A stretch of DNA of 64,000 nt. Origin: Aliirhizobium smilacinae (GTDB lineage: Bacteria > Pseudomonadota > Alphaproteobacteria > Rhizobiales > Rhizobiaceae). Positions 21,516-36,889 of the stretch are shown one piece after another; position 1 is the first letter of the stretch; every line of letters begins with the position of its first letter. The notes below the pieces were generated by a model. That model was not told the DNA's origin. It made no database searches and saw nothing but the letters and a program-made list of their open reading frames with translations. A program made the position numbers and the translations under genes. The stretch is from NCBI RefSeq assembly GCF_006335145.1, contig NZ_VDMN01000002.1, forward strand, positions 434,001-498,000, given 5' to 3'.

Positions 21516-22724
21516 TCAGCAGCAGTAAAGCTCGACCGGAAGGTCGCTGAACACTTCCGGCGCGCCATCGGTGATCGCAAAGGTCTGTCCGACACCGGCC
21601 GTCAGGCCCGTGGTCGCGTCGGGGATCATGATATGGACGAAAAACACCATGCCCGGCGTCATGATCAGCGGATTGCCGGAATAGATCATCGGCGGCACAT
21701 CCATCCAGGTCGGCTTGAAGGTGCAGCCCAGCGCATAACCGCAGGCAGCATAGCGCGCCTTGGCAAAACCGGCATCATCCAGCACGCGGCGATGGATATC
21801 GTCGAGCGTGCCAAGTTCCGCCCCTGCCCTTGCCGCATCCTTGATCTGGTCGAGCGCGTCTTTTGCCACGCTCAGCATGCCGAGCTGGCGCGGGTCCGGC
21901 TTGCCGGTCACCAGCGTATGCTCGACCACGACATGGTAGCGGCAATGGGACCCGGCGAGCTCGACGAGAATCTGGTCCTGTTCCTCGATCAACCGGGGTC
22001 CGCCGATCCCGCGGCCGTAAAGCGCACGCGATCCCGAATTGACGAGAGGCCCACCGGATGGAATGTCGCCACCGCCGGCAAGCATGGAGGTCAATGCCGC
22101 GCCGGACAGCACTGTATCGGGAATTCCGGGTTTGGTAACATCGATCGCGGCGCGAACAGCCGCATCCGCCAGCTTGCCCGCCATGCGCACATGCTCCAGT
22201 TCGGCCGCCGATTTCACCAGCCGCCCGGTGCGGATGATATCCGACGCATCCTCGGTGACGCAAAAACCGTCGAGCGCCTTGTCGACCATGCGGGCATTGG
22301 CGCCGGTCAGGCCATAGGTCGCATATTCGACGCCGATTTTTTTGCCGGCAAGGCCCTTCTCGGCCATGATCGCACGCAGGTCGTTAGCCGGGTTGGCATC
22401 CTCGGCGTTCAGCCAGACACGGACATCGTCGTAGAGCGAAGCGACATTCGCTTGCCGCAGATCAGGCGTGCGGGTCAGAAGCACGGTGTCGCTGCCATCA
22501 TCGGCCAGCACGAGGCCGGCCTGGAAAAACACGTAACCGGCCGTGTCATAACTCGTCAGCCAGTAATGGCTTTCCTGCGAAAACACGATAAGCGCATCGA
22601 TGCCGCGCTCGCGCATCCGGAGACGTGTCGCCGCCAGACGGGTCTCGAATTCGGCCTGTTTGAACTTCAGAAGAACCTGGCGACCGCCACGCGTCGTGCC
22701 GGCAAATTCCTGGGGGACATACAT
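21516..22724 (-). CDS. M24 creatinase/prolidase-fold protein without canonical metal ligands (copy 1)
   Basis: Protein of 402 aa with a creatinase N-terminal domain (VFSQESHYWLTSYDT) and a C-terminal pita-bread domain. The metal site of prolidases (D, D, H, E, E) is absent. The first Asp motif reads DQILVELAGSHCRYH, the GHGIG histidine is Y (GYALGCTF), and the TIEPG and RIED glutamates read VHIMIP and GVGQT. A Glu followed by x-T (VVVEHTLV) sits where metal-free creatinase has a comparable Glu. It is therefore likely a metal-independent amidino- or amide-hydrolase, or non-catalytic. ATGs at 22724 and 22730 are both possible. It is a close paralogue of the gene at 27850. Confidence 0.8.
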   Translation of the reverse strand: MYVPQEFAGTTRGGRQVLLKFKQAEFETRLAATRLRMRERGIDALIVFSQESHYWLTSYDTAGYVFFQAGLVLADDGSDTVLLTRTPDLRQANVASLYDDVRVWLNAEDANPANDLRAIMAEKGLAGKKIGVEYATYGLTGANARMVDKALDGFCVTEDASDIIRTGRLVKSAAELEHVRMAGKLADAAVRAAIDVTKPGIPDTVLSGAALTSMLAGGGDIPSGGPLVNSGSRALYGRGIGGPRLIEEQDQILVELAGSHCRYHVVVEHTLVTGKPDPRQLGMLSVAKDALDQIKDAARAGAELGTLDDIHRRVLDDAGFAKARYAACGYALGCTFKPTWMDVPPMIYSGNPLIMTPGMVFFVHIMIPDATTGLTAGVGQTFAITDGAPEVFSDLPVELYCC

Positions 22725-22771
22725 GGTCATGCGATCTCGCGAGTGATGAAAAGGGTGGCGCCCACGATCCC

Positions 22772-24442
22772 TCAAGCCTCCGCAGGCGTATGAACCGGCA
22801 CCGCATCCAGCAGCGCCTTGGTATAGGGATCGCGATCGGCGGAACGGGCATCCGGCCGGTCGAAGAAATCGACCAGCTTGCCGTGATGCATGACGGCAAT
22901 GCGATGGGCGAGCTGGCGGATCAGGTTCAGGTCATGGGTGATGAACACGCAGGCAGCCCCCGTGTCCTTCTGCAGCTTGACCAGCAGTTCAGCCACCGCC
23001 GCCTGGACCGAAACGTCGAGCGCCGCCGTCACCTCGTCGCAGATGACCAGTTCCGGCTCAGCCGCAAAGGCGCGGGCAATCGCCACACGCTGCTTCTCGC
23101 CGCCGGAAAGCTGGTGCGGATAACGATCGGCGTATTCGGCCGGAAGCCGTACCATCTCCAGAAGCTCGGCAATCCGCGCCTTGATTTTTTCACGCGGCAC
23201 GACGCCGTAGAGTTTCAGCGGCCGGGCGATAATCGTACCGATCTTCTGGCGCGGGTTGAGCGAGGCATCGGGATGCTGGAAAACGATCTGCACGCGGCGT
23301 CGATAGGCCCGGTCGATCGCCCTTCGGCTGCCCACCGTCTTGCCATCGAATTCAAGCTTGCCCTGAAAATCCTGCAGGCCGGCCAGAACCTTGGCGATGG
23401 TCGATTTGCCCGAGCCGCTTTCGCCGACAACGCCGAGCAGCTCACCCTTGCGAACCTCGAAATTGACGTCCTTCGCACCCCAGAAGCCGATCTTGTCCGC
23501 ATCGTCTGGCCAGAACATCTTCTGGATCTTCGAAGGCGCACCGTAATGCACGCCGATGCCGTCGAGTTTGACAAGCGTCTGCGGCACGGCCGGCGCATCG
23601 ACGCCGATCCAGCGATCCGGGTTGGGCACCGCGCCGATCAGCTGTTTCGTATAAGGGGCCGAAGGTTTTTGGAACACGTCGCCGACCAGGCCGCGCTCGA
23701 CGATCACGCCCTTATGCAGCACCGAAACTTCATCCACCACGCGGGAGACGAGCCCGAGATCGTGCGAGATGTAGAGTGCGGAAACATTCGTTTCGTCGCG
23801 CAGCTGGTTGAACAAATCAAGGATCTGCCGTGCGGTCAGGATGTCGAGTGCCGTTGTCGGCTCGTCGAAGATGATCAGTTCCGGCTCGCAGGCAAAGGCG
23901 GTGGCGATCACCACACGCTGCTTTTCGCCGCCCGATGCCTCGTGTGGAAAACGCTTCAGCATTTCCTTCGGGCGGGTGATGCCGGTGCGGGCAAGCGCAG
24001 CCTCAGCCTCCACCCAGGCCTGCGCTTTGGTCAGGCCGCGATGGCGCATCAGCACTTCGGCGATCTGTTCGCCGAGCCTTATCGTCGGGTTGAGCGAGGT
24101 CGAGGGATCCTGAAACACCATCGACATGCGACTGCCGCGAATGTCCAGCATCTGATACGGAGTATAGTCGAGCAGTTCCTCGCCGGCGAGGCGAATGGCA
24201 CCGCCCGTCTCAACGGCATTCGGCGGCAGGTAACGCATCACCGACCACGCCATTGACGACTTGCCGGAACCGCTCTCGCCAACGAGGCCGACCGTCTTGC
24301 CCTTGGGGATCGTCAGGTCGATATTCTTCAGCGCCGAGACCATCCCGTTGGCGGTCTTGTAGGACAGCGAATAGTTGATGATCGAAAGGGCCGGCTTTTC
24401 CGCGGCTGCAGTCACGGTCTGGCTCATCGTCTGAACTGTCAT
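22772..24442 (-). CDS. Fused DppD-DppF-type peptide ABC ATPase (second system)
   Basis: Protein of 556 aa with two ATPase domains. Domain 1 has GESGSGKSSMAW near residue 56, ASGGEKQR and [12 protein letters not shown]. Domain 2 begins near residue 300 with GESGSGKSTIAK, LSGGEKQR and LVICDEVTAALD. It energises the importer encoded by the two permease genes upstream. Its first codon overlaps the end of the DppC-like gene by 4 bases. It is distinct in sequence from the fused ATPase at 17055, so the two systems are not a recent duplication. Confidence 0.9.
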   Translation of the reverse strand: MTVQTMSQTVTAAAEKPALSIINYSLSYKTANGMVSALKNIDLTIPKGKTVGLVGESGSGKSSMAWSVMRYLPPNAVETGGAIRLAGEELLDYTPYQMLDIRGSRMSMVFQDPSTSLNPTIRLGEQIAEVLMRHRGLTKAQAWVEAEAALARTGITRPKEMLKRFPHEASGGEKQRVVIATAFACEPELIIFDEPTTALDILTARQILDLFNQLRDETNVSALYISHDLGLVSRVVDEVSVLHKGVIVERGLVGDVFQKPSAPYTKQLIGAVPNPDRWIGVDAPAVPQTLVKLDGIGVHYGAPSKIQKMFWPDDADKIGFWGAKDVNFEVRKGELLGVVGESGSGKSTIAKVLAGLQDFQGKLEFDGKTVGSRRAIDRAYRRRVQIVFQHPDASLNPRQKIGTIIARPLKLYGVVPREKIKARIAELLEMVRLPAEYADRYPHQLSGGEKQRVAIARAFAAEPELVICDEVTAALDVSVQAAVAELLVKLQKDTGAACVFITHDLNLIRQLAHRIAVMHHGKLVDFFDRPDARSADRDPYTKALLDAVPVHTPAEA

Positions 24443-25260
24443 CCGTGGCTCCTCTTGGGGTCGAGGGCGTCACGCAGGGCGTCGCCGAAAAGGTTGAAAC
24501 CGAGGGCGGCAATGGCGATCGAAAGGCCGGGGATCGCAACGCACCACGGATTGCGGAACATGAACTGGCGCGCTTCCGCCACCATCAGCCCCCATTCGGT
24601 GCTCGGCGGCTGTGCGCCGAGACCAAGGAAGCCGAGCGTCGCGCCGATCATGATGGCGAAAGAAACGCGGATCGTCGCTTCCACGACGATCGGGCTCAAC
24701 GCATTGGGCAGCACTTCGCAGGTGACGATATAGACGCCGGATTCACCGCGGGCGACCGCCGCCCGCACATAGTCGCGGGTGCGGACGGAGAGAACGGCGC
24801 TGCGCGAAATGCGGGCCATGCCGGGAGCAAAGGCGATCGAAACGGCCAGCATCGCATGTTCCATGCCGCCGCCCAGAATGGTGACGATCAGCAGCGTGAA
24901 CAGCAGGTCCGGCACGGCCAGAAGCCCGTCGAGAATGCGCATGATGGTCGAATCGACCCAGCCGCCGGTAACACCGGCGACAACCCCGATGATCGAGCCG
25001 ATACCGACGCCGAGCAGCGTCGCGCCGACACCAAAGGCAACTGTCGAAGGTGCTCCGGTCAATATGCGAGACAGCAGGTCGCGGCCGAACTGGTCGGTGC
25101 CGAACAGATGCATCATCGACGGTCCCTGAAGCCGGTTCAGCGGATCGAAGGCTTGCGGATCGTAAGGGGCGATCATCGGGCCGAAGATCGCGGCAAAACA
25201 GACGATCGCCAGCAATACCGTGCCGACGATGGCCGTGGGTGTGGAGAAGAAATTACGCAT
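24439..25260 (-). CDS. ABC transporter permease, DppC-like (second system)
   Basis: Permease of 273 aa. The segment HLFGTDQFGRDLLSRIL near residue 50 is diagnostic of the DppC family, and the EAA loop is TRDYVRAAVARGESG. The start at 25260 overlaps the end of the DppB-like gene by 8 bases. An upstream in-frame start would extend further into that gene with no family resemblance. It pairs with the preceding permease. Confidence 0.88.
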   Translation of the reverse strand: MRNFFSTPTAIVGTVLLAIVCFAAIFGPMIAPYDPQAFDPLNRLQGPSMMHLFGTDQFGRDLLSRILTGAPSTVAFGVGATLLGVGIGSIIGVVAGVTGGWVDSTIMRILDGLLAVPDLLFTLLIVTILGGGMEHAMLAVSIAFAPGMARISRSAVLSVRTRDYVRAAVARGESGVYIVTCEVLPNALSPIVVEATIRVSFAIMIGATLGFLGLGAQPPSTEWGLMVAEARQFMFRNPWCVAIPGLSIAIAALGFNLFGDALRDALDPKRSHG

Positions 25261-26203
25261 AACGCACCCTCGGGTCGAGCAGGGCAATGACGATGTCCGA
25301 CAGAAGGTTGGACAAGGCATAAACGGCCGCGAGAAGCAGGGTCACGGCCTGGATGACGGGCAGGTCGCGGTTTTCCAGCGCGTAGATCAGCAGGCGTCCG
25401 AGACCCGGCCAGGCAAAGATTTCCTCGACAACGATGATACCGCCGAGCAGGTAGCCGATATCGAGCGAGATGACCGCGACGGCCGGCGCCAGCGAGTTGG
25501 GCAGCGCATGCCGGCGGATCACCCGTCTTTCGGTCAGGCCTTTGAGACGTGCGGCGCGGATATAGTCGGAAGACAGCACTTCCGACATTTCGGAACGGAC
25601 CTGCCGGGCGATATGGGCCATCAGCACGAGGCCAAGGGTTGCCGCGGGAAGAACGACATGGGCGCCGAAGCCTGCGAGATTTTCCCATGGAGCAACAAAG
25701 CCGCCGGCCGGGAAAAGCCCGTGGTTCGGTGCCGCGAAGAACACCAGCAACAGCGTTGCGGTGACGAATTCCGGCAGGCAGGTGCCGAGATAGCTGAACA
25801 GGCCGAGCGCCAGATCCATCGCGGTACCCCGCTTGATCGCGGCAAGCGCGCCGAGCGGAATGGCGGTGATGGTGACGACGACGAGCGCGGTCAGCGCCAG
25901 CATTGCGGAGTTCGCGAATGCCTCGCCGACGACCTGGGTCACCGGCAGAGACAGACGCAGGGATGTCCCAAGATCGCCGTGCAGAATGCCGGCGACCCAG
26001 GTCAGATATTGCGTGTACCAGGGCTGATCCAGATGCAGCTGCTTTTCGAGTGCGGCAACCGCGTCCGGGGTGGCATATTCACCCAGGATCATGATCGCTG
26101 CATTGCCCGGCAGCATCGTCGTGATGGCAAACACGGCGAAGGTTACGATCGCCAGCACAAGAAAGACGGCCAGCAAGCGGCGGATGAGATAAGCCCTGGT
26201 CAT
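25253..26203 (-). CDS. ABC transporter permease, DppB-like (second system)
   Basis: Permease of 316 aa with six membrane spans. The DppB-family N-terminus (RRLLAVFLVLAIVTFAVFA) is followed by TMLPGNAAIMILG. The EAA loop SSDYIRAARLKGLTERRVI is near residue 215. It starts only four bases after the receptor stop. That is unlike the other importers here, which all have structured DNA at this position. Confidence 0.9.
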   Translation of the reverse strand: MTRAYLIRRLLAVFLVLAIVTFAVFAITTMLPGNAAIMILGEYATPDAVAALEKQLHLDQPWYTQYLTWVAGILHGDLGTSLRLSLPVTQVVGEAFANSAMLALTALVVVTITAIPLGALAAIKRGTAMDLALGLFSYLGTCLPEFVTATLLLVFFAAPNHGLFPAGGFVAPWENLAGFGAHVVLPAATLGLVLMAHIARQVRSEMSEVLSSDYIRAARLKGLTERRVIRRHALPNSLAPAVAVISLDIGYLLGGIIVVEEIFAWPGLGRLLIYALENRDLPVIQAVTLLLAAVYALSNLLSDIVIALLDPRVRYA

Positions 26204-26207
26204 CCGG

Positions 26208-27770
26208 TCAGGCCTTATTCAGCCAGACGTTTTCGGCATAGTAGTAGCGGGACAGAGGCGCGATCGTCCAGTCTTCCGCACCCTTGCCGCTGGCGGTCAG
26301 GATGTCTTCGAAAATCGGCACGATATAGGGCGTCTCGTCCAGCTGCAGCTGCTGTGCCTTGGCGTAAAGCTCCTTGCGCTTGGCCGGATCGACCGTGGCG
26401 CGGGCATCGGCGATGAGCTTGTCGAAATCCTTGTTCTTCCAGGCCGTATCCTCGTAGGAGGCATTGGAGGTGAGCAGCAGGTTGAAGGTTGCGTCTTCGG
26501 TGGCCTGCATGCCCCAATAGCCCATGTAGAACTGACCCTTCATCCACACATTGGCGAGATAGGTGTCGTGCGGCATGGTTTCGACTTCGATGTCGAAGCC
26601 GGCGGGCAGCGCCATCTGCTTCAGCGCGATGGCCACCTGCGCACGGATTGCCGGGCGGTTGGAGGCGACGAGCTTGATCTTGATGCCGTCGGGATAACCG
26701 GCTTCCGCAAGCAGCTTCTTGGCGCCTGCCGGATCGTAGGCGATCTCAGGCGTTTCGATCGCATAGGGGAATTCCGGCGACACGAGGTTGTCGTAGGCCG
26801 GGCGGCCGAGACCTTCGAGCACGAGATCAACCAGCGTCGGACGATCGACCGACATGGCGAGCGCCTTGCGCACCCGCACGTCGTCGAAGGGTTTTTGGTC
26901 CTGGCGCATGGTGATGTTGACGAAACGGCCCGACGGAATGCGCTGCGCCGTGATGCCGGTCGCATCGGCGATGCGCTGGAAATCCGCCTGCTGGACGACC
27001 AGCATGACGTCGACCGCGCCGGACAGGAAGTTGGCGCTTTCGGCGGCAAGATCGGGGAACAGCATCATGTCGATGCCGTCGAGATAAGGCTTGCCCTTGA
27101 TGAAATAGTTCTCGTTCTTGACGAGGCGCACCATGCGGGCGCTGTCATAGGTTTCGAGCTTGAACGGGCCGGTGCCGTTGGCGGTCGTGTCCAGCTTTTC
27201 GCGCGGGCCGGACAGGGCGACCTTGGAGACGATGCGGGCATTGGCATGTGCCGTCGAGATCGGCAGGTCGGCAAACGGCGTCTTCAGCGTGAACTTGACG
27301 GTCGTTGCGTCAACGGCCTCGATCTTCTCGATCATGTTGAGGACGGAACGGGCGGCGGCCGGAATGTCGGGGTTGAGGATCGCCTGGTAAGTGGCGACGA
27401 CGTCATCGGCGGTGCACGGCGTGCCGTCGTGGAAGACGATGCCCTTGCGCAGGTAGAAGGTGAAGGTCTTGGCGTCTTCACTGCCTTCCCAGCGCTCGGC
27501 GAGATCGGCCATCGGCTTGTTGTCGGGACCCATGCGGGTCAGGCCCGAATAGAGCATGTCGACGACCGGATATTCGGCGGGGCCCGAGCAGTTCAGCACG
27601 TTCAGCGTTGCGATACGCGTCGAGTGGCTGATCTTCAGCGTGCCGCCGGCCTTCGGCGTGTCGGCAGCCAGTGCTTCGGACATGTCGATGCCGGGAATGA
27701 GTGCGGTTGCCGCAAGGCCGCCGGCGAGACCCATCATCACACTGCGGCGGGAAATCATGAAACTTGTCAT
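26208..27770 (-). CDS. ABC transporter substrate-binding protein, family 5 (peptide type), Tat-exported
   Basis: Receptor of 520 aa with a twin-arginine leader (S-R8-R9-S-V-M-M, then a hydrophobic stretch ending ALAAD). The family-5 signature is near residues 105-125 (LRKGIVFHDGTPCTADDV). Tat export suggests folding before translocation. It lies between the two M24-coding parts of the operon: one M24 gene 80 bases upstream and the permeases directly downstream. The ligand is likely a peptide-like or amidine-like compound handled by the M24 proteins. Confidence 0.88.
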   Translation of the reverse strand: MTSFMISRRSVMMGLAGGLAATALIPGIDMSEALAADTPKAGGTLKISHSTRIATLNVLNCSGPAEYPVVDMLYSGLTRMGPDNKPMADLAERWEGSEDAKTFTFYLRKGIVFHDGTPCTADDVVATYQAILNPDIPAAARSVLNMIEKIEAVDATTVKFTLKTPFADLPISTAHANARIVSKVALSGPREKLDTTANGTGPFKLETYDSARMVRLVKNENYFIKGKPYLDGIDMMLFPDLAAESANFLSGAVDVMLVVQQADFQRIADATGITAQRIPSGRFVNITMRQDQKPFDDVRVRKALAMSVDRPTLVDLVLEGLGRPAYDNLVSPEFPYAIETPEIAYDPAGAKKLLAEAGYPDGIKIKLVASNRPAIRAQVAIALKQMALPAGFDIEVETMPHDTYLANVWMKGQFYMGYWGMQATEDATFNLLLTSNASYEDTAWKNKDFDKLIADARATVDPAKRKELYAKAQQLQLDETPYIVPIFEDILTASGKGAEDWTIAPLSRYYYAENVWLNKA

Positions 27771-27849: not shown

Positions 27850-29028
27850 TCAGCTGATCACGGTCAGCTCGTCGGGCAATCCGGTCAGTACCTCCGGCGC
27901 CCCGTCGGTGACGAGCAGCGTGTGGCCCACGCCCATCGCAAGCCCGGTATCGGCATCGCCGTTCATCACATGATAGAACAGCGTCATGCCCGGCTGGCAG
28001 AGCGTCGGGTTGCCGGAATAGATCATCGGCGGCACGTCCATACTGGTCGGCGCGAATGTGCAGCCCACCGAATAACCGGTCGCGCCGTAACGGGCACGCT
28101 TATAGCCGCCCTTGTCTAGACCGTCGGCATAAACGTCGAAGATCTCGCCGAGCGTCGTGCCGGGACGTGCGATCTCCGTCATCCTGCGCAGCGTCTCCAT
28201 GCCGACATCGTACATCTTGCGATGCGCATCGGAGACTTTTCCGAACAGGATCGTCCATTCGGTCTTCACGTTGTAACGGCGATAGGCAACCGGATATTCG
28301 ACGAGGATCTGGTCCTGTTCTTCCAGCCGGCGCGGATCGGAAACACCGCGGCCATAGACTGCACGCGGGCCGGAATTGAACAGCGGCGCATTCGGCGGCA
28401 TGTCCGCGCCCTGGCCGAGGATCGAGGTGAGATACGTAGCCTTCAGGTCGCTGTCGAGAATGCCCGGACGGGCAGCTGCGATCACGGCATTCAGCGAGTC
28501 ATCCAGAATACGGGCCGCCTTGCGGGTATATTCGATTTCGGCCGGAGACTTGCAGACGCGCAGCCAGCGGATCAGGTGCCGGTCGTCTTCCAGTTCGCAC
28601 CAGTTGCCGATCGTCTGCTGCGTGCGATAGAGGTTCCAGCCTGTCAGGCCGTGGGTGTTCAGCTCGATTGCGATCTTTTTCCCGCCAAGACCCAGTTCTT
28701 CAAGAATGACCTTCAGATCTGCAGCCGGATTGGCGTCCTCGGCATCCCACCAGATGCGGATGTCCTCGATGATGCTCGTCTGTTTCGCCTGCACCAGATC
28801 CGGGCGGCGGGTCAGAAGTACCGGCTGGCGACCATCCGTCGGCACGACCAGGCACTGGTAATAGACGAAGCCACCGGTGTCGTAGCCGGTCAGCCAGTAC
28901 ATGCTTTCCTGGGCAAACACGAGCATGGCATCGACGCCGCGCGCCGCGAGTTCGGCCCGAAGCCGGTCCTGTCGCTGCAGATGCTCCTCCTTGGAAAAGG
29001 GGAGGTTCGGTTGCGGCATGGCACTCAC
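27850..29028 (-). CDS. M24 creatinase/prolidase-fold protein without canonical metal ligands (copy 2)
   Basis: Protein of 392 aa, colinear with the M24 protein at 21516 (shared YWLTGYDTGGF, DVPPMIYSGNP, GYSVGCTF). The metal ligands are lost in the same way: DQILVEYPVAYRRYN for the Asp motif, Y for the GHGIG His, and FYHVMNGD and GVGHT for the two Glu motifs. The Glu-x-T triplet (VKTEWTIL) is kept. A GTG start at 29028 is supported by AAAGGA seven bases upstream. The next ATG is 29019. It is probably the first gene of an eight-gene - strand operon running to 19700. It is divergent from a GntR regulator with a TGGTATACCA site between them. Confidence 0.8.
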   Translation of the reverse strand: MSAMPQPNLPFSKEEHLQRQDRLRAELAARGVDAMLVFAQESMYWLTGYDTGGFVYYQCLVVPTDGRQPVLLTRRPDLVQAKQTSIIEDIRIWWDAEDANPAADLKVILEELGLGGKKIAIELNTHGLTGWNLYRTQQTIGNWCELEDDRHLIRWLRVCKSPAEIEYTRKAARILDDSLNAVIAAARPGILDSDLKATYLTSILGQGADMPPNAPLFNSGPRAVYGRGVSDPRRLEEQDQILVEYPVAYRRYNVKTEWTILFGKVSDAHRKMYDVGMETLRRMTEIARPGTTLGEIFDVYADGLDKGGYKRARYGATGYSVGCTFAPTSMDVPPMIYSGNPTLCQPGMTLFYHVMNGDADTGLAMGVGHTLLVTDGAPEVLTGLPDELTVIS

Positions 29029-29083
29029 GAATGTGTCCTTTCGGCAAGATCGTCAAAGCTCGTTGTTGCTTCACCCTACGGTT

Positions 29084-29093
29084 TGGTATACCA
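29084..29093. promoter_or_regulatory. Candidate GntR operator, site 1
   Basis: TGGTATACCA is a perfect 10-bp palindrome, preceded by T, in the 220-base divergent region between the M24 gene and the GntR gene. The same core occurs at 34986 between pxpA and the amidotransferase gene. FCD-type GntR regulators commonly bind TGGTnnACCA-like sites. Confidence 0.6.
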
Positions 29094-29248
29094 CTCGTCA
29101 ACCAGCGGAATACAAAAATTGCGAGACAAGCGAAATCGATTGCGGAAGATAGACACCCATTGGGCGTAGAATCTGGTGACAACTGCCAAAGCGTGTGGCA
29201 CCAGACAGATATTTGACGCGGTCTCCGCAAGGGAGGGACTGGATATTT

Positions 29249-29908
29249 ATGCTGATTGAAACCGATAAGCGGCTGGCGCTGCAGGCCTACGAACAGATAT
29301 TGAACCTGATCCTTACCGGAGTTGCGCAGCCGGGCACGATGGTGACCGAACGCCGTCTGGCGGAAATCCTCAACATGTCGCGCACGCCGATTCGCGATGC
29401 GCTGCTGATGCTCGAAAGCGAAGGCCTGCTGATCCGTCAGGGCAGCCGTGGCCTGCAGGTCAAGCAGATGCGCGTCGAAGATTATATGGATGCGCTGCAG
29501 ATCCGCCAGCTTCTGGAACCCGAAGCCGCCCGTCTTGCCGCCGGTCGCATGTCTGCCGCCGCTCTCGACGAACTCGAAGCAGACCTGAAAACTCTGCTCG
29601 GAAAACCGGAAGACGGCGAAGGCAAGCCGGATCGCGGCTCCGTCCGCGATGTCGACGACCGGCTTCACGGCGGCATCGGCGATTGCGCCGGCAATCCGCA
29701 ACTGGCGCAGATCATCCGCACGCTGCGTCGCCAGACCCAGATTTTCGACCTGAGAAGCATGCCGGAACGGTTCGAGGCGACCTGCCGCGAACATCTGGAT
29801 ATCGTCGGCGCACTGCGTGAGGGCCGCGGCGATGACGCTGCTAAGCTGATGCGCCAGCATCTCGATCACGTCAAAGACAGCATTATCGGGAGACTGACCC
29901 GCACATGA
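29249..29908 (+). CDS. GntR family (FadR/FCD subfamily) transcriptional regulator
   Basis: Regulator of 219 aa. The winged helix at residues 10-75 contains the GntR signature (VTERRLAEILNMSRTPIRDALLMLESEGLL). It is followed by an all-helical FCD ligand domain with the D-x3-H (DDRLHGGI) and C-terminal H-x3-H pattern (MRQHLDHV) that usually bind a metal and a carboxylic acid. The start at 29249 has GGGAGGG upstream. It overlaps the next gene (ATGA) and heads the M20-hydroxyacid dehydrogenase-pxpBC unit. Confidence 0.88.
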   Translation: MLIETDKRLALQAYEQILNLILTGVAQPGTMVTERRLAEILNMSRTPIRDALLMLESEGLLIRQGSRGLQVKQMRVEDYMDALQIRQLLEPEAARLAAGRMSAAALDELEADLKTLLGKPEDGEGKPDRGSVRDVDDRLHGGIGDCAGNPQLAQIIRTLRRQTQIFDLRSMPERFEATCREHLDIVGALREGRGDDAAKLMRQHLDHVKDSIIGRLTRT

Positions 29909-31218
29909 CAGTATTGGCAAAAGGCGTGCAGGCTGCAGAGCCCGTGCTCAGCAATTCTGCCCCGGTCGATATCGCGCTTGCCGAACGGCTGTTCGACGAG
30001 CTGAGACGCCGGACCGGCACCAATCGCGGCATCACCCGCACCTCCTACGGTCTCGGCGAGCAGATTGCCCATGACATGGTGCGCCGCGAGGCACGCAAGT
30101 TAGGCCTCGAAGTCAAGACCGATCCCGGCTGCAATCTCTACATGACGATGAAGGGCCGCGACGAAGGTCCGGGCATCTTCATCGGCTCGCATCTCGATTC
30201 CGTGCCGATGGGCGGCAATTTCGATGGCGCCGCCGGCGTACTGCTCGGCCTGTCGGTCATCTCCGGTTATGTCCGCGCCGGCATCCGTCCCCCGCGCGAT
30301 ATAACCGTCATGGCGATCCGCGCCGAGGAAAGCACCTGGTTCGGCGCGTCCTATATCGGCAGCCGCGCCGCACTCGGACGTCTCACAGGAAGCGAACTCG
30401 ACAAGGTCAAGCGTTCCTCCGACCAGATCTCGCTTGGCGCCGCCATCGATGCCGCCGGCGGCGACACGGAATTCCTTCGCTCGGGCAAATCCTGGCTCGA
30501 CCCGAAAAATATCGCCATGTTCATCGAGGCGCATATTGAGCAGGGTCCGGTTCTGGTCGAAAAGCAGATCCCGATCGGCATCGTCACCGGCATTCGCGGT
30601 TCCTTCCGTTATCGCGAAGCCAAATGCATCGGCGTTTATGCCCATTCGGGCGCCACGCCGCGCGAATATCGCAGCGATGCCGTACGGGCAGCCTCGGCTC
30701 TGGTCGTCGAACTCGACAAGGCCTGGGATGAGCTGCAGGCAGAGGGCGCAGATCTCGTCGTCACTTTCGGCCAGTTTTCGACCGACGCTTCGGAAGCAGC
30801 ATTCAGCAAGATCGCCGGCAAGCTCTCATTCGCGCTCGATGTCCGCAGCCAAGAACCGGAAACGCTTTCAAAGATGCAAGCCATCGTCTCCGATGCCGTC
30901 ACCCGCATCGAGGCGGAACATCGCGTCAAATTCGAACTCGGCCGTTTGACCGACAGCAAAGCGGCGAAGATGGACGACGCTATTGTCGCCTCGCTCGCCG
31001 GATTGGCAAAGGAGCACGGTATCGAGGCTCAGACCATGGCCTGCGGTGCGGGCCATGATGCGGCTGTGTTTGCCGATGCCGGCGTGCCGACCGGCATGGT
31101 CTTCATCCGCAATGCCAATGGCAGCCACAATCCAGACGAGCAGATGGAGATTGCCGATTTCGCCGAGGCAGCGAGGCTTGTTTCCGCGCTCTGCCTCGAC
31201 CCGCCACTGAAAGCCTGA
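29905..31218 (+). CDS. M20 family Zn-dependent amidohydrolase (hydantoinase/carbamoylase, HyuC-AmaB-like)
   Basis: Enzyme of 437 aa of the N-carbamoyl-L-amino-acid hydrolase / ureidoglycolate-type M20 family. The dimetal ligands are visible: H in GSHLDSVPMGG, D in GGNFDG, the tandem Glu in RAEEST, H in EAHIEQGP, and the late H in SHNPDEQ. The catalytic GAGHDAAV motif is present. It removes carbamoyl, formyl or related groups from ring-opened amino acid derivatives. It starts within the GntR stop codon. Together with the oxoprolinase subunits it points to turnover of cyclic amide or ureido compounds. Confidence 0.88.
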   Translation: MTVLAKGVQAAEPVLSNSAPVDIALAERLFDELRRRTGTNRGITRTSYGLGEQIAHDMVRREARKLGLEVKTDPGCNLYMTMKGRDEGPGIFIGSHLDSVPMGGNFDGAAGVLLGLSVISGYVRAGIRPPRDITVMAIRAEESTWFGASYIGSRAALGRLTGSELDKVKRSSDQISLGAAIDAAGGDTEFLRSGKSWLDPKNIAMFIEAHIEQGPVLVEKQIPIGIVTGIRGSFRYREAKCIGVYAHSGATPREYRSDAVRAASALVVELDKAWDELQAEGADLVVTFGQFSTDASEAAFSKIAGKLSFALDVRSQEPETLSKMQAIVSDAVTRIEAEHRVKFELGRLTDSKAAKMDDAIVASLAGLAKEHGIEAQTMACGAGHDAAVFADAGVPTGMVFIRNANGSHNPDEQMEIADFAEAARLVSALCLDPPLKA

Positions 31219-31220
31219 TC

Positions 31221-32174
31221 ATGTCCGATATTCGTTGTGACTGCCTCATCGTCCAGCCGATTGCCAAAAGCGCCATCCGCATGCTGGAGGAGACCGGGCT
31301 CGTCGTCCACACTTCGGCATCCACCGCCTTTGCCGATCTCGAACCCTATCTTGCCGTCGCAACCGCGGTCATCACCCGCAATCACGGCCTGTCCGCCCGC
31401 GAAATCGAGGCGGCCCCCAATCTTAAGGTCGTCGGCGTTCACGGCACCGGAACCGACAAGGTGCACAAGCCGTCGCTTGCCGCGCGCGGCATCCCGCTGC
31501 ACAACACGCCGGGCGCCAATGCCCAGTCGGTTGCCGAACTGGTGATAGGCCTGGCGCTTGCCTGCTCGCGTTCGCTGATCGCCGCCGACAACGCCTCGCG
31601 CACCGGCGACACGCTCTTCCGCCAGCATCACCGCACCTTCGAACTCTCCGGCCGCCGCCTCGGCCTGTTCGGCTACGGCCATATCGCAAAGCTCGTTGCG
31701 CGTTTAGGCCAGGCTTTCGGCATGGAAGTCGCCACCGTGTCGCGCTTCACACCTGCCGAAGAACTTCAGCAGCAGGGCATCACGCTCCTGCCGGACCTCG
31801 ACAGCCTCTGCGAATGGTCGGACATCGTCTCGCTACACGGCATCCCTGAGGTGGAACCGCTTTTCGATGCTCGCCGCCTGTCGCTGATCGGCAAAAACGG
31901 CATCCTGATCAACACCGCCCGCGGCGCGCTGATCGATGAAGATGCGCTCGCCATCGCGCTGAAGAACGGGATCATTGCCGGTGCCGGGCTCGACGTGCTG
32001 GTGACCGAGCCGATTATTTCCGGTCATCCCCTACTCGACTGCCCGAACCTCGTGTTAACTCCCCATATCGGCGGTTCGACGGACGAAGCGCTGGAAAAGA
32101 CAGGTTTCCAGGTCGCCAGCAAGGTGCTGGCCGAACTGGCGGCGATCGATCGGGTTCCGGCCACCGGCACCTGA
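31221..32174 (+). CDS. D-isomer-specific 2-hydroxyacid dehydrogenase
   Basis: Protein of 317 aa with an NAD-binding motif GLFGYGHIAKLVA (about residue 150), where the usual last glycine of GxGxxG is alanine. The catalytic residues are all present: Arg in INTARGALID, Glu in VTEP and His in TPHIGGST. It reduces 2-keto acids to D-2-hydroxyacids or the reverse. It starts two bases after the amidohydrolase stop. It probably deals with the keto or hydroxy acid released from the degraded substrate. Confidence 0.85.
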   Translation: MSDIRCDCLIVQPIAKSAIRMLEETGLVVHTSASTAFADLEPYLAVATAVITRNHGLSAREIEAAPNLKVVGVHGTGTDKVHKPSLAARGIPLHNTPGANAQSVAELVIGLALACSRSLIAADNASRTGDTLFRQHHRTFELSGRRLGLFGYGHIAKLVARLGQAFGMEVATVSRFTPAEELQQQGITLLPDLDSLCEWSDIVSLHGIPEVEPLFDARRLSLIGKNGILINTARGALIDEDALAIALKNGIIAGAGLDVLVTEPIISGHPLLDCPNLVLTPHIGGSTDEALEKTGFQVASKVLAELAAIDRVPATGT

Positions 32175-32197
32175 TCGCCACATGGTAGATTGAAGAC

Positions 32198-32971
32198 ATG
32201 CCCGTCACGCCCCGCCCCGGCCCCAGATCAGGCCCAGAAACGATCAACGAGATTTCCTATCCGCGCATCCTTCGCTGCGGCGATCGCGCCATCGGCATCG
32301 AGTTTTCCGATACGGTCAGCGAGGCCGCCAATCTCAAGGTCCTGTCGCTCGATGCGTCGCTTGCCGCCGAGCCGATCGACGGCATTCTGGAGACGATCCC
32401 GACCTATCGCTCGCTGACCGTGATCTACGACCCGAAGACCGTGCGTGGTGCTTCTCTCGGCGAGCAGCTGCTGCAACGCGCGGCACAAGACGCTGCCGCA
32501 CCGGACACCGGCCGCCTGCTCGAATTCCCGGTGTTTTACGGCGGTGAACATCAGGCCGATTTCGATGAAATCGCCGAGCTGAAGAACACCACCGCAGCCG
32601 ATGTGATCGCCCTGCATTCCTCGGCCGAATACCGGGTCTACATGATCGGCTTCGCACCGGGTTTCGCCTACCTCGGCGGCTTGCCGGAAATTCTGCACAC
32701 CCCACGGCTTGCCGTGCCGCGCCAGCGGATCGAGGCCGGTGCGATCGGCATCGGCGGCCGCCAGTCGAGCATCAATTCCGTGCCCGGCCCCAGCGGCTGG
32801 CGTTTTATCGGCCGCACCCCGTTCAAGCTCTTCGATCCCGCCCGCACCGAAGCTTTCCTGCTGAAAGCCGGCGACCGGATCACCTTCCGCAGCATCGACA
32901 TCGATGAAGCACGTGAGCTGGATGAAAAAGTCGCAGCCGGTACCGCGGAACTGAAGGAGATCGCCCGATGA
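32198..32971 (+). CDS. pxpB: 5-oxoprolinase subunit PxpB (allophanate hydrolase subunit 1 family)
   Basis: Protein of 257 aa with the family hallmarks MIGFAPGFAYLGGLPE, the PR-x-A-V-P-R-QRIEAGAIGIGG segment and GWRFIGRTP. With PxpA and PxpC it forms the ATP-dependent bacterial 5-oxoprolinase that opens pyroglutamate to glutamate. It overlaps pxpC by 4 bases. PxpBC-like pairs are also used in other carboxyl-transfer or lactam-opening enzymes, so the substrate could be a pyroglutamate analogue. The N-terminus has about 20 extra proline-rich residues. Confidence 0.88.
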   Translation: MPVTPRPGPRSGPETINEISYPRILRCGDRAIGIEFSDTVSEAANLKVLSLDASLAAEPIDGILETIPTYRSLTVIYDPKTVRGASLGEQLLQRAAQDAAAPDTGRLLEFPVFYGGEHQADFDEIAELKNTTAADVIALHSSAEYRVYMIGFAPGFAYLGGLPEILHTPRLAVPRQRIEAGAIGIGGRQSSINSVPGPSGWRFIGRTPFKLFDPARTEAFLLKAGDRITFRSIDIDEARELDEKVAAGTAELKEIAR

Positions 32972-33912
32972 AAGCTCTCCTTTCCATTCATCGTTCCGGC
33001 CCCCTGATGTCGGTTCAGGACGGCGGCCGTTACGGTTTTCGCGCCCGCGGTGTCTCCACCTCAGGGGCAATGGACCGTGACGCCCACGCCATCGCCAACG
33101 CTCTGGTCAGCAACGAGCCGGGCGCGGCCGCCATCGAATTCGCCCTGATCGGCGGCGCGTTTACGGCAGACCGCGACGTGCTTGTCGCTGTCACCGGTGG
33201 ACGCTGCGCGATTGATATCGCCGGCAAGGCGGTTGCGACCTGGGAGAGCCATCTTCTCAAGGCAGGCGAAACGCTGACGATCGGCGCTCTGCGCGGCGCC
33301 GTCTGGGGTTATCTCGCCATCTCCGGCGGCATCACCATTCCAGAAGTGCTCGGCAGCCGCTCGACCCATTTGAGAACCGCGGTCGGTGGCTTGGATGGCA
33401 GGGTAATTGCCTCAGGCGATATATTGCCCCTCGGCGAGACCGGAAAACTCAAGTCCCGCATGCTGGGCACGCCTTATCTGCGCGGAAACGCGCCTATCGC
33501 GGTCATTCCCGGCCCGCAGGACGACTATTTCGACGAGAGCGCCTGGAAAACATTCCTGCGCCAGCCCTACCGAACCACCACATCGCGCGACCGGATGGCG
33601 ATGGTGCTCGACGGTCCTGCCCTCAGCGCATTGAAGGGTCACGATATCGTCTCGGATGCCACCGTCGTCGGCTCCATCCAGGTGCCGGGTTCGGGCAAGC
33701 CCATCGTGCTCACCGCCGATGGCCAGACGACCGGCGGTTACCCGAAGATCGCCACCATCGTGTCATTCGATCTCGCGCGCCTGGCACAACTGCCGGCGGG
33801 TCAGGATTTCATGTTCCGGGCAATCTCCGCCGATATGGCCGAAGAACAGGCAATCCATGCACAGGATCGCCTCTCGGCCGTGATCGGCGGCCTCAAGAAG
33901 AAAAAGGGCTGA
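32968..33912 (+). CDS. pxpC: 5-oxoprolinase subunit PxpC (biotin-dependent carboxyltransferase / allophanate hydrolase subunit 2 family)
   Basis: Protein of 314 aa. It opens with LSVQDGGRYGFRARGV-like residues (SVQDGGRYGFRARGVSTSG) and contains VIPGPQDDYF near residue 180 and TADGQTTGGYPKIATI near residue 250, all typical of PxpC. It is coupled to pxpB by an ATGA overlap and is the last gene of this + strand unit. It converges on the inverted pxpA with a palindromic repeat between them. Confidence 0.88.
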   Translation: MKALLSIHRSGPLMSVQDGGRYGFRARGVSTSGAMDRDAHAIANALVSNEPGAAAIEFALIGGAFTADRDVLVAVTGGRCAIDIAGKAVATWESHLLKAGETLTIGALRGAVWGYLAISGGITIPEVLGSRSTHLRTAVGGLDGRVIASGDILPLGETGKLKSRMLGTPYLRGNAPIAVIPGPQDDYFDESAWKTFLRQPYRTTTSRDRMAMVLDGPALSALKGHDIVSDATVVGSIQVPGSGKPIVLTADGQTTGGYPKIATIVSFDLARLAQLPAGQDFMFRAISADMAEEQAIHAQDRLSAVIGGLKKKKG

Positions 33913-33955
33913 CCACCCTCGGAAGCTTGGGAACGAACAACCCACCAAACGACGC

Positions 33956-34059
33956 CGTCATGCTCGGGCTTGTCCCGAGGATCTAACCACGGTGCCAAAG
34001 CAGTAGTGTTGCGGTCGTTGATACGGCAGCAGATGCTCGGGACAAGCCCGAGCATGACG
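33956..34059. repeat. Palindromic intergenic repeat with 24-bp perfect arms
   Basis: The arm at 33956-33979 is the exact reverse complement of 34036-34059, and each arm holds CTCGGG-cttgt-CCCGAG. It lies between the convergent ends of pxpC and pxpA. This type of element is widespread in rhizobial intergenic DNA (my recollection). It could end transcription in both directions. Confidence 0.8.
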
Positions 34060-34140
34060 AAGGAGAGGTTTCGGCCCTTATCAGCAGCCTTGAGAAAGGG
34101 GCAGCCCGCCCTTCACTGCCCTCTTCAATCAACCAAACCG

Positions 34141-34899
34141 CTACATCGAAGACCCAATCACCCATCCGGCCTTTTCCAGCGCCGCGCGCAACTGCCTTGC
34201 CATCGTCACGGCACCGGGCGTATCGCCATGCACGCAGACCGACCCGATCGGCACTTCCAGCCGCTTGCCGGATGTCGATGTCAGGCATCCTTCCGAAACC
34301 ATCTCGATCACCCTTTTCACCAGAAGCTCGGGATCGTGGATCACCGACCCCGGTTCGGAACGTGGCGAGAGGTTGAATGTGTCCGCATAGGTGCGGTCGG
34401 CATAGATCTCGTTGATCGGCGTCAGCCCGAGTTTTTCTGCAGCCCGCGCCGTTGCCGTTCCCGGCATTACCATGAAGGCAAGTTTCGGATCGACGGCCTT
34501 GATGGCCCGGCCGACCGCAAGCGCCATATCATCGTCATCGGCACAGACATTGCCGAGCGCGCCATGGGTCTTCACATGCGTCATTGGATGGCTTTCCAGC
34601 GCCGCGACCGCAGCCAGTGCGCCGACCTGATAGGCAACCAGCGTTTCGATCTCGGAAATACTCAACCCCGGCAAACGCCGACGGCCGAAACCAATCAGGT
34701 CCATATAGCCGGGATGCGCGCCGAAGGCGACGCCGCGTTCCTTCGCCAGCCGCACCGTGGCGCGCATGATGTCTGGATCGCCGGCATGGAAACCGCAGGC
34801 GATATTAGCGGTGCTGACGATATCGAGCATCGCCGCGTCATCGCCCATCGTCCAGGGACCGTAGCCCTCGCCAAGGTCGGAGTTGAGATCGATACGCAT
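34141..34899 (-). CDS. pxpA: 5-oxoprolinase subunit PxpA (LamB/YcsF family)
   Basis: Protein of 252 aa. It begins with RIDLNSDLGEGYGPW and includes NIACGFHAGDPDIM and GAHPGYMDLIGFGRR, the defining segments of the YcsF/PxpA family. It supplies the active site for 5-oxoproline hydrolysis together with PxpB and PxpC. It is normally in one operon with them. Here it is inverted, converging on pxpC and divergent from an amidotransferase gene. The GntR-like palindrome at 34977 lies in its upstream region, which would keep it under the same control. Confidence 0.9.
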   Translation of the reverse strand: MRIDLNSDLGEGYGPWTMGDDAAMLDIVSTANIACGFHAGDPDIMRATVRLAKERGVAFGAHPGYMDLIGFGRRRLPGLSISEIETLVAYQVGALAAVAALESHPMTHVKTHGALGNVCADDDDMALAVGRAIKAVDPKLAFMVMPGTATARAAEKLGLTPINEIYADRTYADTFNLSPRSEPGSVIHDPELLVKRVIEMVSEGCLTSTSGKRLEVPIGSVCVHGDTPGAVTMARQLRAALEKAGWVIGSSM

Positions 34900-34976
34900 T
34901 GCTTCCCCTTTTTGTACCTCTTGTCAGATGCATAGCAAAGCAGCCGCAAAATGCCACGGTTTCCCGATTGCACCAT

Positions 34977-35004
34977 GAAGACCATTGGTATACCACTGGT
35001 CTTC
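34977..35004. promoter_or_regulatory. Candidate GntR operator, site 2 (extended palindrome)
   Basis: The core TGGTATACCA (34986-34995) is flanked by perfect outer arms GAAGACCA (34977-34984) and TGGTCTTC (34997-35004), so 26 of 28 positions are symmetric. It lies between the divergent starts of pxpA (34899) and the amidotransferase (35028). The core is identical to site 1 at 29084 beside the GntR gene. Confidence 0.65.
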
Positions 35005-35027: not shown

Positions 35028-35729
35028 ATGGCGGGACGGCTTCTTTATCTCGGCAATGGACGCAAGTTTCAGTCCATCGCAAAACTCGACGACCGGTTCG
35101 AGGCCTGGGGTCTGCAAGTCGATCGTTACTGGGCTTATGACGGCCAGTTTCCCGAAACGATGAAGGGTTATGACGGAATCTTTTTATCCGGCAGCCCGCA
35201 TGGCGCCTATGAAGACGTCCCCTTCATCCTGAGCGAACATGACCTGATCCGCGAAGCCGCAGAGCTTGAAATCCCCATGCTCGGCATCTGCTTCGGCAGC
35301 CAGATCCTCGCATCCGCACTTTGCGGCCGTGACCAGGTGTTCCGCCGCACTTCCTGCGAAATCGCCTACAAGGACCTGCCGCTGACCGAGGCCGCCCGCA
35401 CCGACAAGCTCTGCCGTGATCTGGTCGACAGCGCCTACATGTTCGTCTGGCACAATGACGAGGTAAAGGCCGCGCACCCGGACATGACCGTGCTCGCCTA
35501 TTCCGACGACTGCCCGAACCATATCTGGCGCTACAAGGACAAGGATATCTGGGGCATCCAGGGACATCCGGAAGTCACCAAGGCGCAGGCCGTCATCTGG
35601 TTCGAGGAAAACCGCGAGCGGATGACACTCGACGGCGCCGATATCGACGATCTCAAGGCGCAGGCCCATGAGGCCGCCGAGGCCAAGACCATGCTGACCC
35701 GCTTTGCGGAACTGGTCCAGAACGCCTGA
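35028..35729 (+). CDS. Class I (type 1) glutamine amidotransferase-like protein
   Basis: Protein of 233 aa with the triad of class I amidotransferases: nucleophile Cys in MLGICFGSQILA (about residue 88), and His and Glu in IQGHPEVT near residue 180. It resembles stand-alone GMP-synthase-type glutaminase domains with no synthetase partner encoded nearby. It may hydrolyse gamma-glutamyl compounds, which would feed pyroglutamate or glutamate metabolism. The start at 35028 is preceded by ACGAGGA and lies 24 bases after the palindrome. It is followed by the third M24 gene 29 bases later. Confidence 0.85.
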   Translation: MAGRLLYLGNGRKFQSIAKLDDRFEAWGLQVDRYWAYDGQFPETMKGYDGIFLSGSPHGAYEDVPFILSEHDLIREAAELEIPMLGICFGSQILASALCGRDQVFRRTSCEIAYKDLPLTEAARTDKLCRDLVDSAYMFVWHNDEVKAAHPDMTVLAYSDDCPNHIWRYKDKDIWGIQGHPEVTKAQAVIWFEENRERMTLDGADIDDLKAQAHEAAEAKTMLTRFAELVQNA

Positions 35730-35758: not shown

Positions 35759-36889
35759 ATGGTAACGCCCGCCTACTGGTTCGAACGCCAGGAATTCCAG
35801 TCCCGCCTTTCCCGCGTCCAGGCCGAGCTGAAGAAGAAGCAGCTCGATGGTCTCGTGGCCTTCCTGCCGGAAACCGTCACCTGGCTCACCGGCTATTTCA
35901 CCCGTGCCTATGGCACTCTGCAATTCGCCATCATTCCGGCCGAAGGCGAGCCGACCCTGTTCTGCCGCGATGTCGAGGAATATTATCTCGACAGCACCTG
36001 CGTCTTTTCCGACCGGGTAATGTGGACCGACAGCGACGACCGCATGGCGGTTGCCGTAGGTGCCATTGAAAGCCGTATCGGCAAGACCGCCAAGCTCGGC
36101 ATCGAGCTGTCCGCCTGGCCGCTTTCGGCCGGCCGTTACGAATACCTGAAATCGGCGCTTCCCGGCATCGTCTGGCAGGACGAGAGCCTGATGACGCCGC
36201 AGATGCGCCTCATCAAGTCGCCCGCCGAAATCGCCTATCAGCGCCGCGCCGCAAAGGCTGCCGAAGCCGGCATGCAGGCCGCGATCGACAGTGCCGCGGT
36301 CGGCGTTACCGAGCGCGAAATGGCCGCCGAAGTCTGCGCCGCAATGATCCGCGCCGGTTCCGACCTGCCGGGTCCGGGCGTCATGTCATCGGGCGAACGC
36401 GCCTTCCACCTGCATGGTGGATATTCCGACCGTGTGCTGGAAGCCGGCGACATCGTCCAGATCGAGACGACGCCGAATGTAAAACACTACCACGCCCGCT
36501 TCATGCGCCCGATCCGGGTCGGGCCGGTGCAGGATGACGATTACAAGGTGGTGGAACAGCTGATCGCCATTCAGGATGCGGCCATAAGTGAAGTGAAACC
36601 GGGTGTTTCGGTGCGCGTGCCGGATGCGATCTACCGCGACGGCGTGCTTTCGGCGGGCCTGCGCGAAACCTACACGAACAAGACCTTCTATTCCGTCGGC
36701 TTGCTGCTGCAGCCGAATGGCGGTGAGCCGCTGGAATCGGCGGAAAACAGCACCTGGACCTTCGAACCCGGCCAGACCTTCCACACCTATGTGCTGGCCC
36801 GCGGTTTCGGCATGTCGGAGACGATCACCATCACCGAAACCGGCTACGAAAAACTGACCAATTTCCCGCGCCAGCTCTTCGTCAAGTAA
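35759..36889 (+). CDS. M24 creatinase/prolidase-fold protein without canonical metal ligands (copy 3)
   Basis: Protein of 376 aa with the creatinase N-terminal domain (LPETVTWLTGYFTRAYG) and a C-terminal M24 domain. The metal motifs are again missing: GDIVQIETTPNVKHYHARF for the Asp motif, FYSVGLLL in place of GHGIG, FHTYVL for the TIEPG Glu, and GMSET for RIED. Unlike the other two copies it also lacks the Glu-x-T triplet. It is more distant from copies 1 and 2 than they are from each other. It is likely co-transcribed with the amidotransferase gene. Confidence 0.8.
   Translation: MVTPAYWFERQEFQSRLSRVQAELKKKQLDGLVAFLPETVTWLTGYFTRAYGTLQFAIIPAEGEPTLFCRDVEEYYLDSTCVFSDRVMWTDSDDRMAVAVGAIESRIGKTAKLGIELSAWPLSAGRYEYLKSALPGIVWQDESLMTPQMRLIKSPAEIAYQRRAAKAAEAGMQAAIDSAAVGVTEREMAAEVCAAMIRAGSDLPGPGVMSSGERAFHLHGGYSDRVLEAGDIVQIETTPNVKHYHARFMRPIRVGPVQDDDYKVVEQLIAIQDAAISEVKPGVSVRVPDAIYRDGVLSAGLRETYTNKTFYSVGLLLQPNGGEPLESAENSTWTFEPGQTFHTYVLARGFGMSETITITETGYEKLTNFPRQLFVK

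Follow-up and report, generated by a model that had tools for sequence, protein, structure and literature searches.

A conserved palindrome marks two predicted operators of a GntR-type regulator in a rhizobial uptake and breakdown cluster

A 64,000-nucleotide stretch of the Aliirhizobium smilacinae genome (contig NZ_VDMN01000002.1, positions 434,001 to 498,000 of the forward strand; hereafter the window) carries a GntR-type regulator gene (29249-29908, + strand) that is divergent from an operon of M24-family and ABC transporter genes, and the locus raises the question whether this regulator acts at more than one promoter, and at which. An initial annotation had pointed to two copies of the palindrome TGGTATACCA, and both are exact: one lies at 29084-29093, between the regulator gene and the first M24 gene (site 1), the other at 34986-34995, between pxpA and a glutamine amidotransferase-like gene, 5.9 kb away (site 2). 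These are the sole matches in the window, even when up to one mismatch is allowed; dinucleotide shuffles of the window gave a mean of 0.17 matches (standard deviation 0.40), with at least two matches in 1 of 100 shuffles. Our reading, in which we have good confidence, is that of one GntR regulon with two predicted operators: the regulator very probably uses the same operator at two promoters to switch an uptake and breakdown cluster, in rhizobia and in some of their relatives.

Orthologous loci were gathered with the GntR protein from named genomes (14 loci), from plasmids (three more records), from a survey of the family (5 of 297 genomes besides the window's own) and from a survey of the class (1 of 385, besides the window's own). 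Twenty loci share the arrangement of an M24-family gene (M24a), the GntR gene and an M20-family amidohydrolase gene: the window, L003-L016, L024, L025, L027, L028 and L029. Some are near-duplicates, the site-1 promoter block being represented by 18 distinct sequences including the window's own, and in most of them the gene starts are the edges of tblastn matches, uncertain by a few bases. Four distant relatives with other gene orders and a GntR identity of 47-51% (L026, L030, L031 and L032) were counted apart. The comparison of these loci had been set beforehand as the check on both sites, and each was found conserved upstream of the orthologues.

Site 1 (GGTATACC) is present in all 20 loci, in 15 exactly and in 5 with one mismatch. 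When the window is aligned with L003-L016 (15 rows), the operator columns have a mean identity of 0.987, and other 10-column segments of the intergenic region (205 segments) reach at most 0.960 and average 0.705. On the minus strand, TTGAC(G/T), a distance of 17 bp and TAnnnT follow one another at fixed positions in 20 of 20 loci, with GGTATACC in the spacer at a constant offset; in the window these are the predicted -35 element TTGACG (29096-29101) and the predicted -10 element TAGGGT (29073-29078) of the operon that begins with M24a (27850-29028, minus strand) and continues with the transporter genes. The other invariant letters at site 1 belong to this -35 element and to an adjacent GGAATAC block. 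From site 1 to the M24a start there are 56.5-61.5 bp in 13 loci and up to 94.5 bp in the others, and the spacing to the GntR start varies between 111.5 and 237.5 bp. The initial annotation had described this copy as lying in the divergent region beside the GntR gene, and the position was right, although in the window the site is nearer to the M24 start (about 60 bp) than to the GntR start (about 160 bp). The operator fills the spacer between the two promoter elements, so that binding there should block the M24a-ABC promoter, the bound repressor keeping RNA polymerase off it.

At the other end of the cluster, site 2 precedes the class-I glutamine amidotransferase-like gene (35028-35729, + strand), which is followed by a further M24 gene (M24c, 35759-36889, + strand). 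This pair stands apart from M20 in 16 loci: 13 with the full cassette of a D-2-hydroxyacid dehydrogenase (2HADH) gene, pxpBC and pxpA, two with 2HADH and pxpA (L028 and L029), and L027, where a gap of about 480 bp separates M20 from the pair. Site 2 is found in 15 of these 16 loci, 12 times exactly and three times with one mismatch. L010, L014 and L015 have the pair no more than about 160 bp behind M20, and in this gap no site 2 was found even with three mismatches allowed (GT and AC kept); L025, with no amidotransferase gene in the stretch, has no second site. Measured from the centre of site 2, the amidotransferase start is 36.5-38.5 bp away in each of the 13 loci with the full cassette (37.5 bp in 11 of them, among these the window), 36.5 bp away in L028 and 68.5 bp in L027. 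In an alignment of the window with the 11 cassette-bearing loci among L003-L016 (12 rows), the operator columns average an identity of 0.975, against a maximum of 0.958 and a mean of 0.750 for other 10-column segments (118 segments). At both sites the operator columns are thus the best conserved of any ten in their aligned intergenic regions.

The association of site 2 with the regulator was surveyed in a sample of 100 relative genomes using an extended site-2 pattern, ACCNNYGGTATACCRNNGG, which was found in 12 of them; its reversed control gave one match in each of 8 genomes, which shows that an extended pattern of this kind can turn up singly by chance. A GntR protein of at least 74% identity is encoded in 14 of the genomes, and a fifteenth, G691, has a 41% relative only. 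The pattern occurs in 12 of the 14 GntR-bearing genomes and in 0 of the 86 without the gene (Fisher 9e-14, a value that overstates independence, the genomes being related and largely the same as the named loci). In the two GntR-bearing genomes without it, G726 and G719, the amidotransferase gene directly follows M20 and the stretch contains no pxp cassette. Of the 12 site-2 loci, ten were inspected, the window's own included, and in all ten the match lies between pxpA and the amidotransferase gene; the remaining two have the GntR gene on the same contig, about 5 kb away. Since the site-1 blocks of the 13 other GntR-bearing genomes are identical to those of the named loci, the survey adds the absence in the 86 genomes and no new evidence on conservation. 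Matches of an earlier extended pattern in two of the 297 family genomes, G114 and G078, have none of these genes within their 3-kb stretches and were not taken as evidence.

The initial annotation had also noted a 28-base near-perfect palindrome around the second copy, which is real (34977-35004, one mismatched pair of 14), its outermost arms being only partly kept in relatives. Nested in it is the extended operator ACCA-n-TGGTATACCA-n-TGGT (34981-35000). Counted outwards from the centre in the 15 site-2 sequences, dyad pairs 1-4 are kept in 15 of 15, pair 5 in 12, and pairs 6 and 7 in 5 and 7; farther out, pairs 8, 9, 10 and 14 are kept in 15, 14, 12 and 13 sequences, and pairs 11-13 in 8, 10 and 8. 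From these counts, the conserved part of operator 2 is about 20 bp long (ACC-N2-YGGTATACCR-N2-GG), with outer boxes ACC and GG 8-10 bp from the centre and looser outer arms. A TTGC at 34968-34971 (+ strand), 17 nt before the TATACC of the operator in 13 of 15 loci, is a candidate -35 element of the amidotransferase promoter, which would place the operator over the -10 element. Such long dyad symmetry just upstream of a start codon could also be read as an RNA hairpin in the amidotransferase leader, with no protein operator at all, and pair 13 does show a weak sign of compensation (8 of 15 paired, 4.7 expected, 2% of shuffles). We consider the hairpin very improbable: pairs 10-12 have no covariation above chance, dyad covariation as a whole is too weak to prove the outer arms, an identical core without arms lies within the promoter spacer at site 1, and site 2 is tied to the presence of the GntR gene. 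A protein operator, through which the amidotransferase-M24c operon would be repressed from a core and outer TGGT/ACCA boxes about 37 bp before the start, is therefore preferred.

The protein itself has an N-terminal GntR helix-turn-helix domain (PF00392, 57.7 bits, cut-off 27) and an FCD domain (PF07729, 89.4 bits, cut-off 24.3), which assign it by profile to the FadR subfamily (FCD) of the GntR superfamily. None of the 16 listed NCBIfam families of named regulators, PhnR, NanR, UxuR, ExuR, LldR and GlcC among them, reaches its cut-off; the best scores are 92.2 bits against 271.5 (phnR_burk), 58.4 of 260 for NanR and 34.1 of 442 for the Uxu regulator. A D-x3-H, H, H pattern (D136, H140, H182 and H204 in the window) is present in 24 alignment rows, in L031 and L032 as judged by eye, and these residues are the putative metal ligands of a possible VanR-type metal-binding FCD domain. 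The recognition helix, MSRTPxRDALLMLE, is constant in 20 rows except for one I/L/V position.

Several observations weigh against a local regulon with two operators and have to be set beside it. The promoter elements at site 1 are our own consensus readings; a generic promoter scan (threshold 9 of 12 matches) lists neither promoter, and the predicted -10 element agrees with the sigma-70 consensus at three positions only. One locus, L029, has the amidotransferase gene and pxpA and lacks site 2. Among the four distant relatives, no site within one mismatch was found in L026 and L030 (GntR identity 51% and 47%, other gene contexts); an exact site precedes the 2HADH-M20-GntR genes of L031, and in L032 a site with one mismatch stands between M20 and GntR. 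L027 and L031 each have another match with one mismatch, which was not counted. Nor is the motif enriched over chance genome-wide, because the 6,006,051-base genome holds 4 exact copies of TGGTATACCA against 1 of the reversed control, and 5 copies of YGGTATACCR against 14 of its reversed control. With a total that is not above chance, and with the bare 10-mer present in 124 of the 297 genomes of the family (6 of the 297 have a GntR relative at E ≤ 1e-50), the two copies might be taken for a chance repeat of a palindromic 10-mer. That explanation has practically no probability left, being contradicted by the way the sites have kept their places (20 of 20 and 15 of 16 loci), by the fixed distances to the promoter elements and the amidotransferase start, and by the position of both sites in the best-conserved segments; what stands out is that two of the four genomic copies lie within 5.9 kb of each other, both intergenic.

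The last of these observations concerns a second GntR protein of the genome (L001), which is 49% identical over 170 amino acids, has the same recognition helix, NMSRTPLRDALLMLE, and whose own M24-ABC gene run has an upstream TTGGTATACCAA site; this site counts as upstream provided that M24 starts close to the boundary of its tblastn match rather than at the earlier TTG of the listed frame. The site of UxuR is close to TTGGTATACCAA. A paralogue with the same helix and a site of its own means that the operators studied here could be shared with it or bound by it, so that they would be real GntR operators under shared or cross-wired control. We judge this possible and clearly the less probable arrangement, as the survey, which traced the local GntR gene, found the extended site-2 pattern in 12 of 14 genomes with that gene and in 0 of 86 without it. 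The run itself (L001:2613-8700) consists of M24, ABC transporter and GntR genes, the GntR gene closing it, and the C-terminal part of this relative stops aligning after about residue 168 of the query.

Two further genomic copies were kept out of the regulon. Copy C10 (L002:8103-8122) is a 20-bp perfect palindrome, GCTATTGGTATACCAATAGC, with no recognised target gene in the stretch and with LysR and tripartite-transporter-like genes to one side; two of three tested frames on one side have no Pfam match. Copy C4 (L062) has one mismatch and lies within a reading frame.

Which transcription units the local regulator would govern can be judged from how the sites keep their distances. The initial annotation had placed all units under one regulator, counting three of them in its title and four in its text. 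Site conservation upholds this for two: that the M24a-ABC operon and amidotransferase-M24c have a common type of operator, linked to this GntR gene, is well supported by the aligned loci. It does not uphold it for pxpA (34141-34899, minus strand, convergent with pxpBC). Site 2 travels with the amidotransferase operon and not with pxpA, because its distance to the amidotransferase start is fixed, that to pxpA ranges from 77.5 to 152.5 bp over 14 loci, and L027 has site 2 and no pxpA in the stretch. The gene was said to be inverted yet co-regulated; the inversion is shared by all 13 full-cassette loci, in which pxpA is on the strand opposite pxpBC and the amidotransferase gene, and the co-regulation found no support. 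Direct control of pxpA by the GntR protein is accordingly doubtful. A single regulator over all four units, pxpA included, acting from upstream as repressor or activator, or bridging the two sites, would fit the place of site 2 between pxpA and the amidotransferase gene in 14 of the 15 loci where these are neighbours; we rate it as unlikely, considering the drifting distance, about 60 extra bases between site 2 and pxpA in L004, and the occurrence of site 2 without pxpA in L027 and of pxpA without site 2 in L029. The extra bases of L004 (about 15480-15539), found in this one of 12 aligned loci only, are possibly a dispersed repeat.

Between the well-supported control of two units and the doubtful control of pxpA stands the unit of GntR, M20, 2HADH and pxpBC. 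Its autoregulation through site 1 is plausible, and somewhat favoured, without reaching the strength of the other two cases because site 1 holds a fixed position relative to the M24a promoter elements, and its distance to the GntR start drifts. On the + strand a TTGC (29066-29069) stands 17 nt before the TATACC of operator 1, and of the 20 loci 14 have a TTGC or TTGA at exactly this spacing, 4 have one at 18 nt, and 2 have neither; the tetramer may be part of a promoter in the GntR direction (a possible -35 element) or of the region where the M24a transcript starts. Just upstream of the M24a -35 element, the letters GGAATAC (29107-29113) do not vary among the 15 aligned loci, and further relatives retain them in part. 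Between site 1 and the start of the GntR gene stands another conserved block, TGACAA ... TGGCACC (about 29174-29204), in which the letters TG.CAA and TG.C..C are constant across those 15 loci; as a sigma-54 site or a second operator this block was dropped by eye, its spacing being wanting when compared with the sigma-54 consensus.

The pxp genes are an optional part of the cluster: L010, L014, L015 and L027 keep the GntR gene and the core with the pxp genes missing from the cluster (the rest of these genomes was not searched), and L010 has a more distant pxp set within 10 kb. A speculative idea, of rather low probability, relates this to the sites. Where the amidotransferase-M24c pair comes right after GntR-M20 it would ride on site 1 (3 of 3 loci), and where it has been split off, by the 2HADH-pxpBC/pxpA cassette or by a gap, it has a copy of its own (15 of 16, at a fixed distance in the cassette loci), as if operator 2 were a regulatory patch; a multimeric GntR protein could moreover bridge both copies over 5.9 kb, closing off the pxp genes between them. 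Comparing loci that have the pxp cassette with those that lack it gives a natural example of the way in which an operon, once split, might come back under control. The GntR tree is mostly unresolved within the ortholog group, so we make no call on gain or loss of the cassette. The cassette itself is rearranged in L028 and L029, where 2HADH and a convergent pxpA are present and pxpB (in L028 also pxpC) lies elsewhere in the stretch on the opposite strand.

From these results a control circuit may be proposed in which the GntR protein acts as a local FadR-subfamily (FCD, VanR-like) repressor that would bind the 10-bp core TGGTATACCA at the two promoters; a small carboxylate derived from the imported substrate would, by analogy with the family, bind the FCD domain and release the protein, turning both units on. 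The effector is more likely a compound of the shared core (the M24 proteins, the transporter and M20) than 5-oxoproline, because the four loci without pxp genes in the cluster keep the regulator and the core. That the pxp genes are optional narrows the search for substrate and inducer, and a regulator that has no family name gains a conserved putative operator and a defined regulon (M24a-ABC and amidotransferase-M24c).

The proposed circuit is well supported and of a conventional kind. The regulator Atu1419 comes from the same bacterial family as the protein studied here (Rhizobiaceae). This VanR-type GntR protein of Agrobacterium fabrum is reported to bind ATGTATACAT both at a divergent region and at another transcription unit belonging to that catabolic locus; it shares with our system the FCD domain, a 10-bp palindrome with a GTATAC centre and one site in a -35/-10 spacer, its other sites lying over -10 boxes (PMC7797058). 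The two differ in the outer bases (AT/AT in Atu1419, TG/CA here), in the promoter that holds the spacer site (the regulator gene's own there, that of M24a-ABC here) and in the separation of the sites (190 bp against 5.9 kb); Atu1419 was shown to be tetrameric, with a folate proposed as effector (PMC7797058). The FadR-subfamily regulators UxuR, HypR, PrpR, MdcY and HpxS have operators with TKGT/ACMA boxes, a GT-N2-AC centre and 2-nt spacing (PMC4494728). TGGTATACCA, as a putative operator, fits this palindromic consensus and is conserved in the orthologous loci. In the same source, weak extra half-sites stand 7-12 nt from the centre, with which the outer boxes of site 2 agree, and the UxuR/HypR class resembles our locus in that the only site of its divergon lies closer to the structural operon, although it controls other genes (PMC4494728). 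In its layout and operator the system thus matches known FCD-type GntR repressors such as Atu1419, with no departure from known GntR biology.

Two further repressors of the GntR type resemble the present one less closely. NanR of E. coli likewise has GGTATA half-site letters and several operons under its control; it binds three direct repeats by means of a 32-residue N-terminal extension, whereas the site here is a palindrome and the protein starts near its helix-turn-helix domain (PMC8012715). PxpR of Corynebacterium glutamicum is also encoded divergently from a 5-oxoprolinase operon; it recognises agattgttcaacaatct with 5-oxoproline as ligand, whereas the operator here is another one and the pxp genes are optional (PMC13274462). 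In both intergenic regions it is TGGTATACCA that is conserved as a palindrome and not the PxpR operator, for which no separate search was made. Among the matches listed from the open-access literature, none deals with the present cluster or its regulator in the title or the opening of the abstract, and among those listed for TGGTATACCA no title is on bacterial gene regulation.

The remaining genes were identified by Pfam and NCBIfam profile searches of the window proteins. Downstream of the regulator on the + strand lie the M20 or carbamoylase-family amidohydrolase gene (29905-31218), the 2HADH gene (31221-32174), pxpB (32198-32971) and a pxpC-like gene (32968-33912), whose product is below the cut-off of NF045499 and above that of TIGR00724. 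On the minus strand, M24a is followed by the genes of a peptide-type ABC transporter: a substrate-binding protein (SBP_bac_5, 26208-27770), a permease (25253-26203), an OppC-type permease (24439-25320) and an ATPase with two nucleotide-binding domains (22772-24442). Then come M24b (21516-22775, the listed TTG start of which may be too early), a short-chain dehydrogenase gene (20690-21475, its start set at an internal ATG of the listed frame) and the gene of a DHDPS-family aldolase (19700-20626). M24a, M24b and M24c are all creatinase/ectoine-hydrolase-like. In L061 the matches to M24a, M20 and M24c each come in two pieces, as does that to M24a in L015, as if these genes were frameshifted or misassembled.

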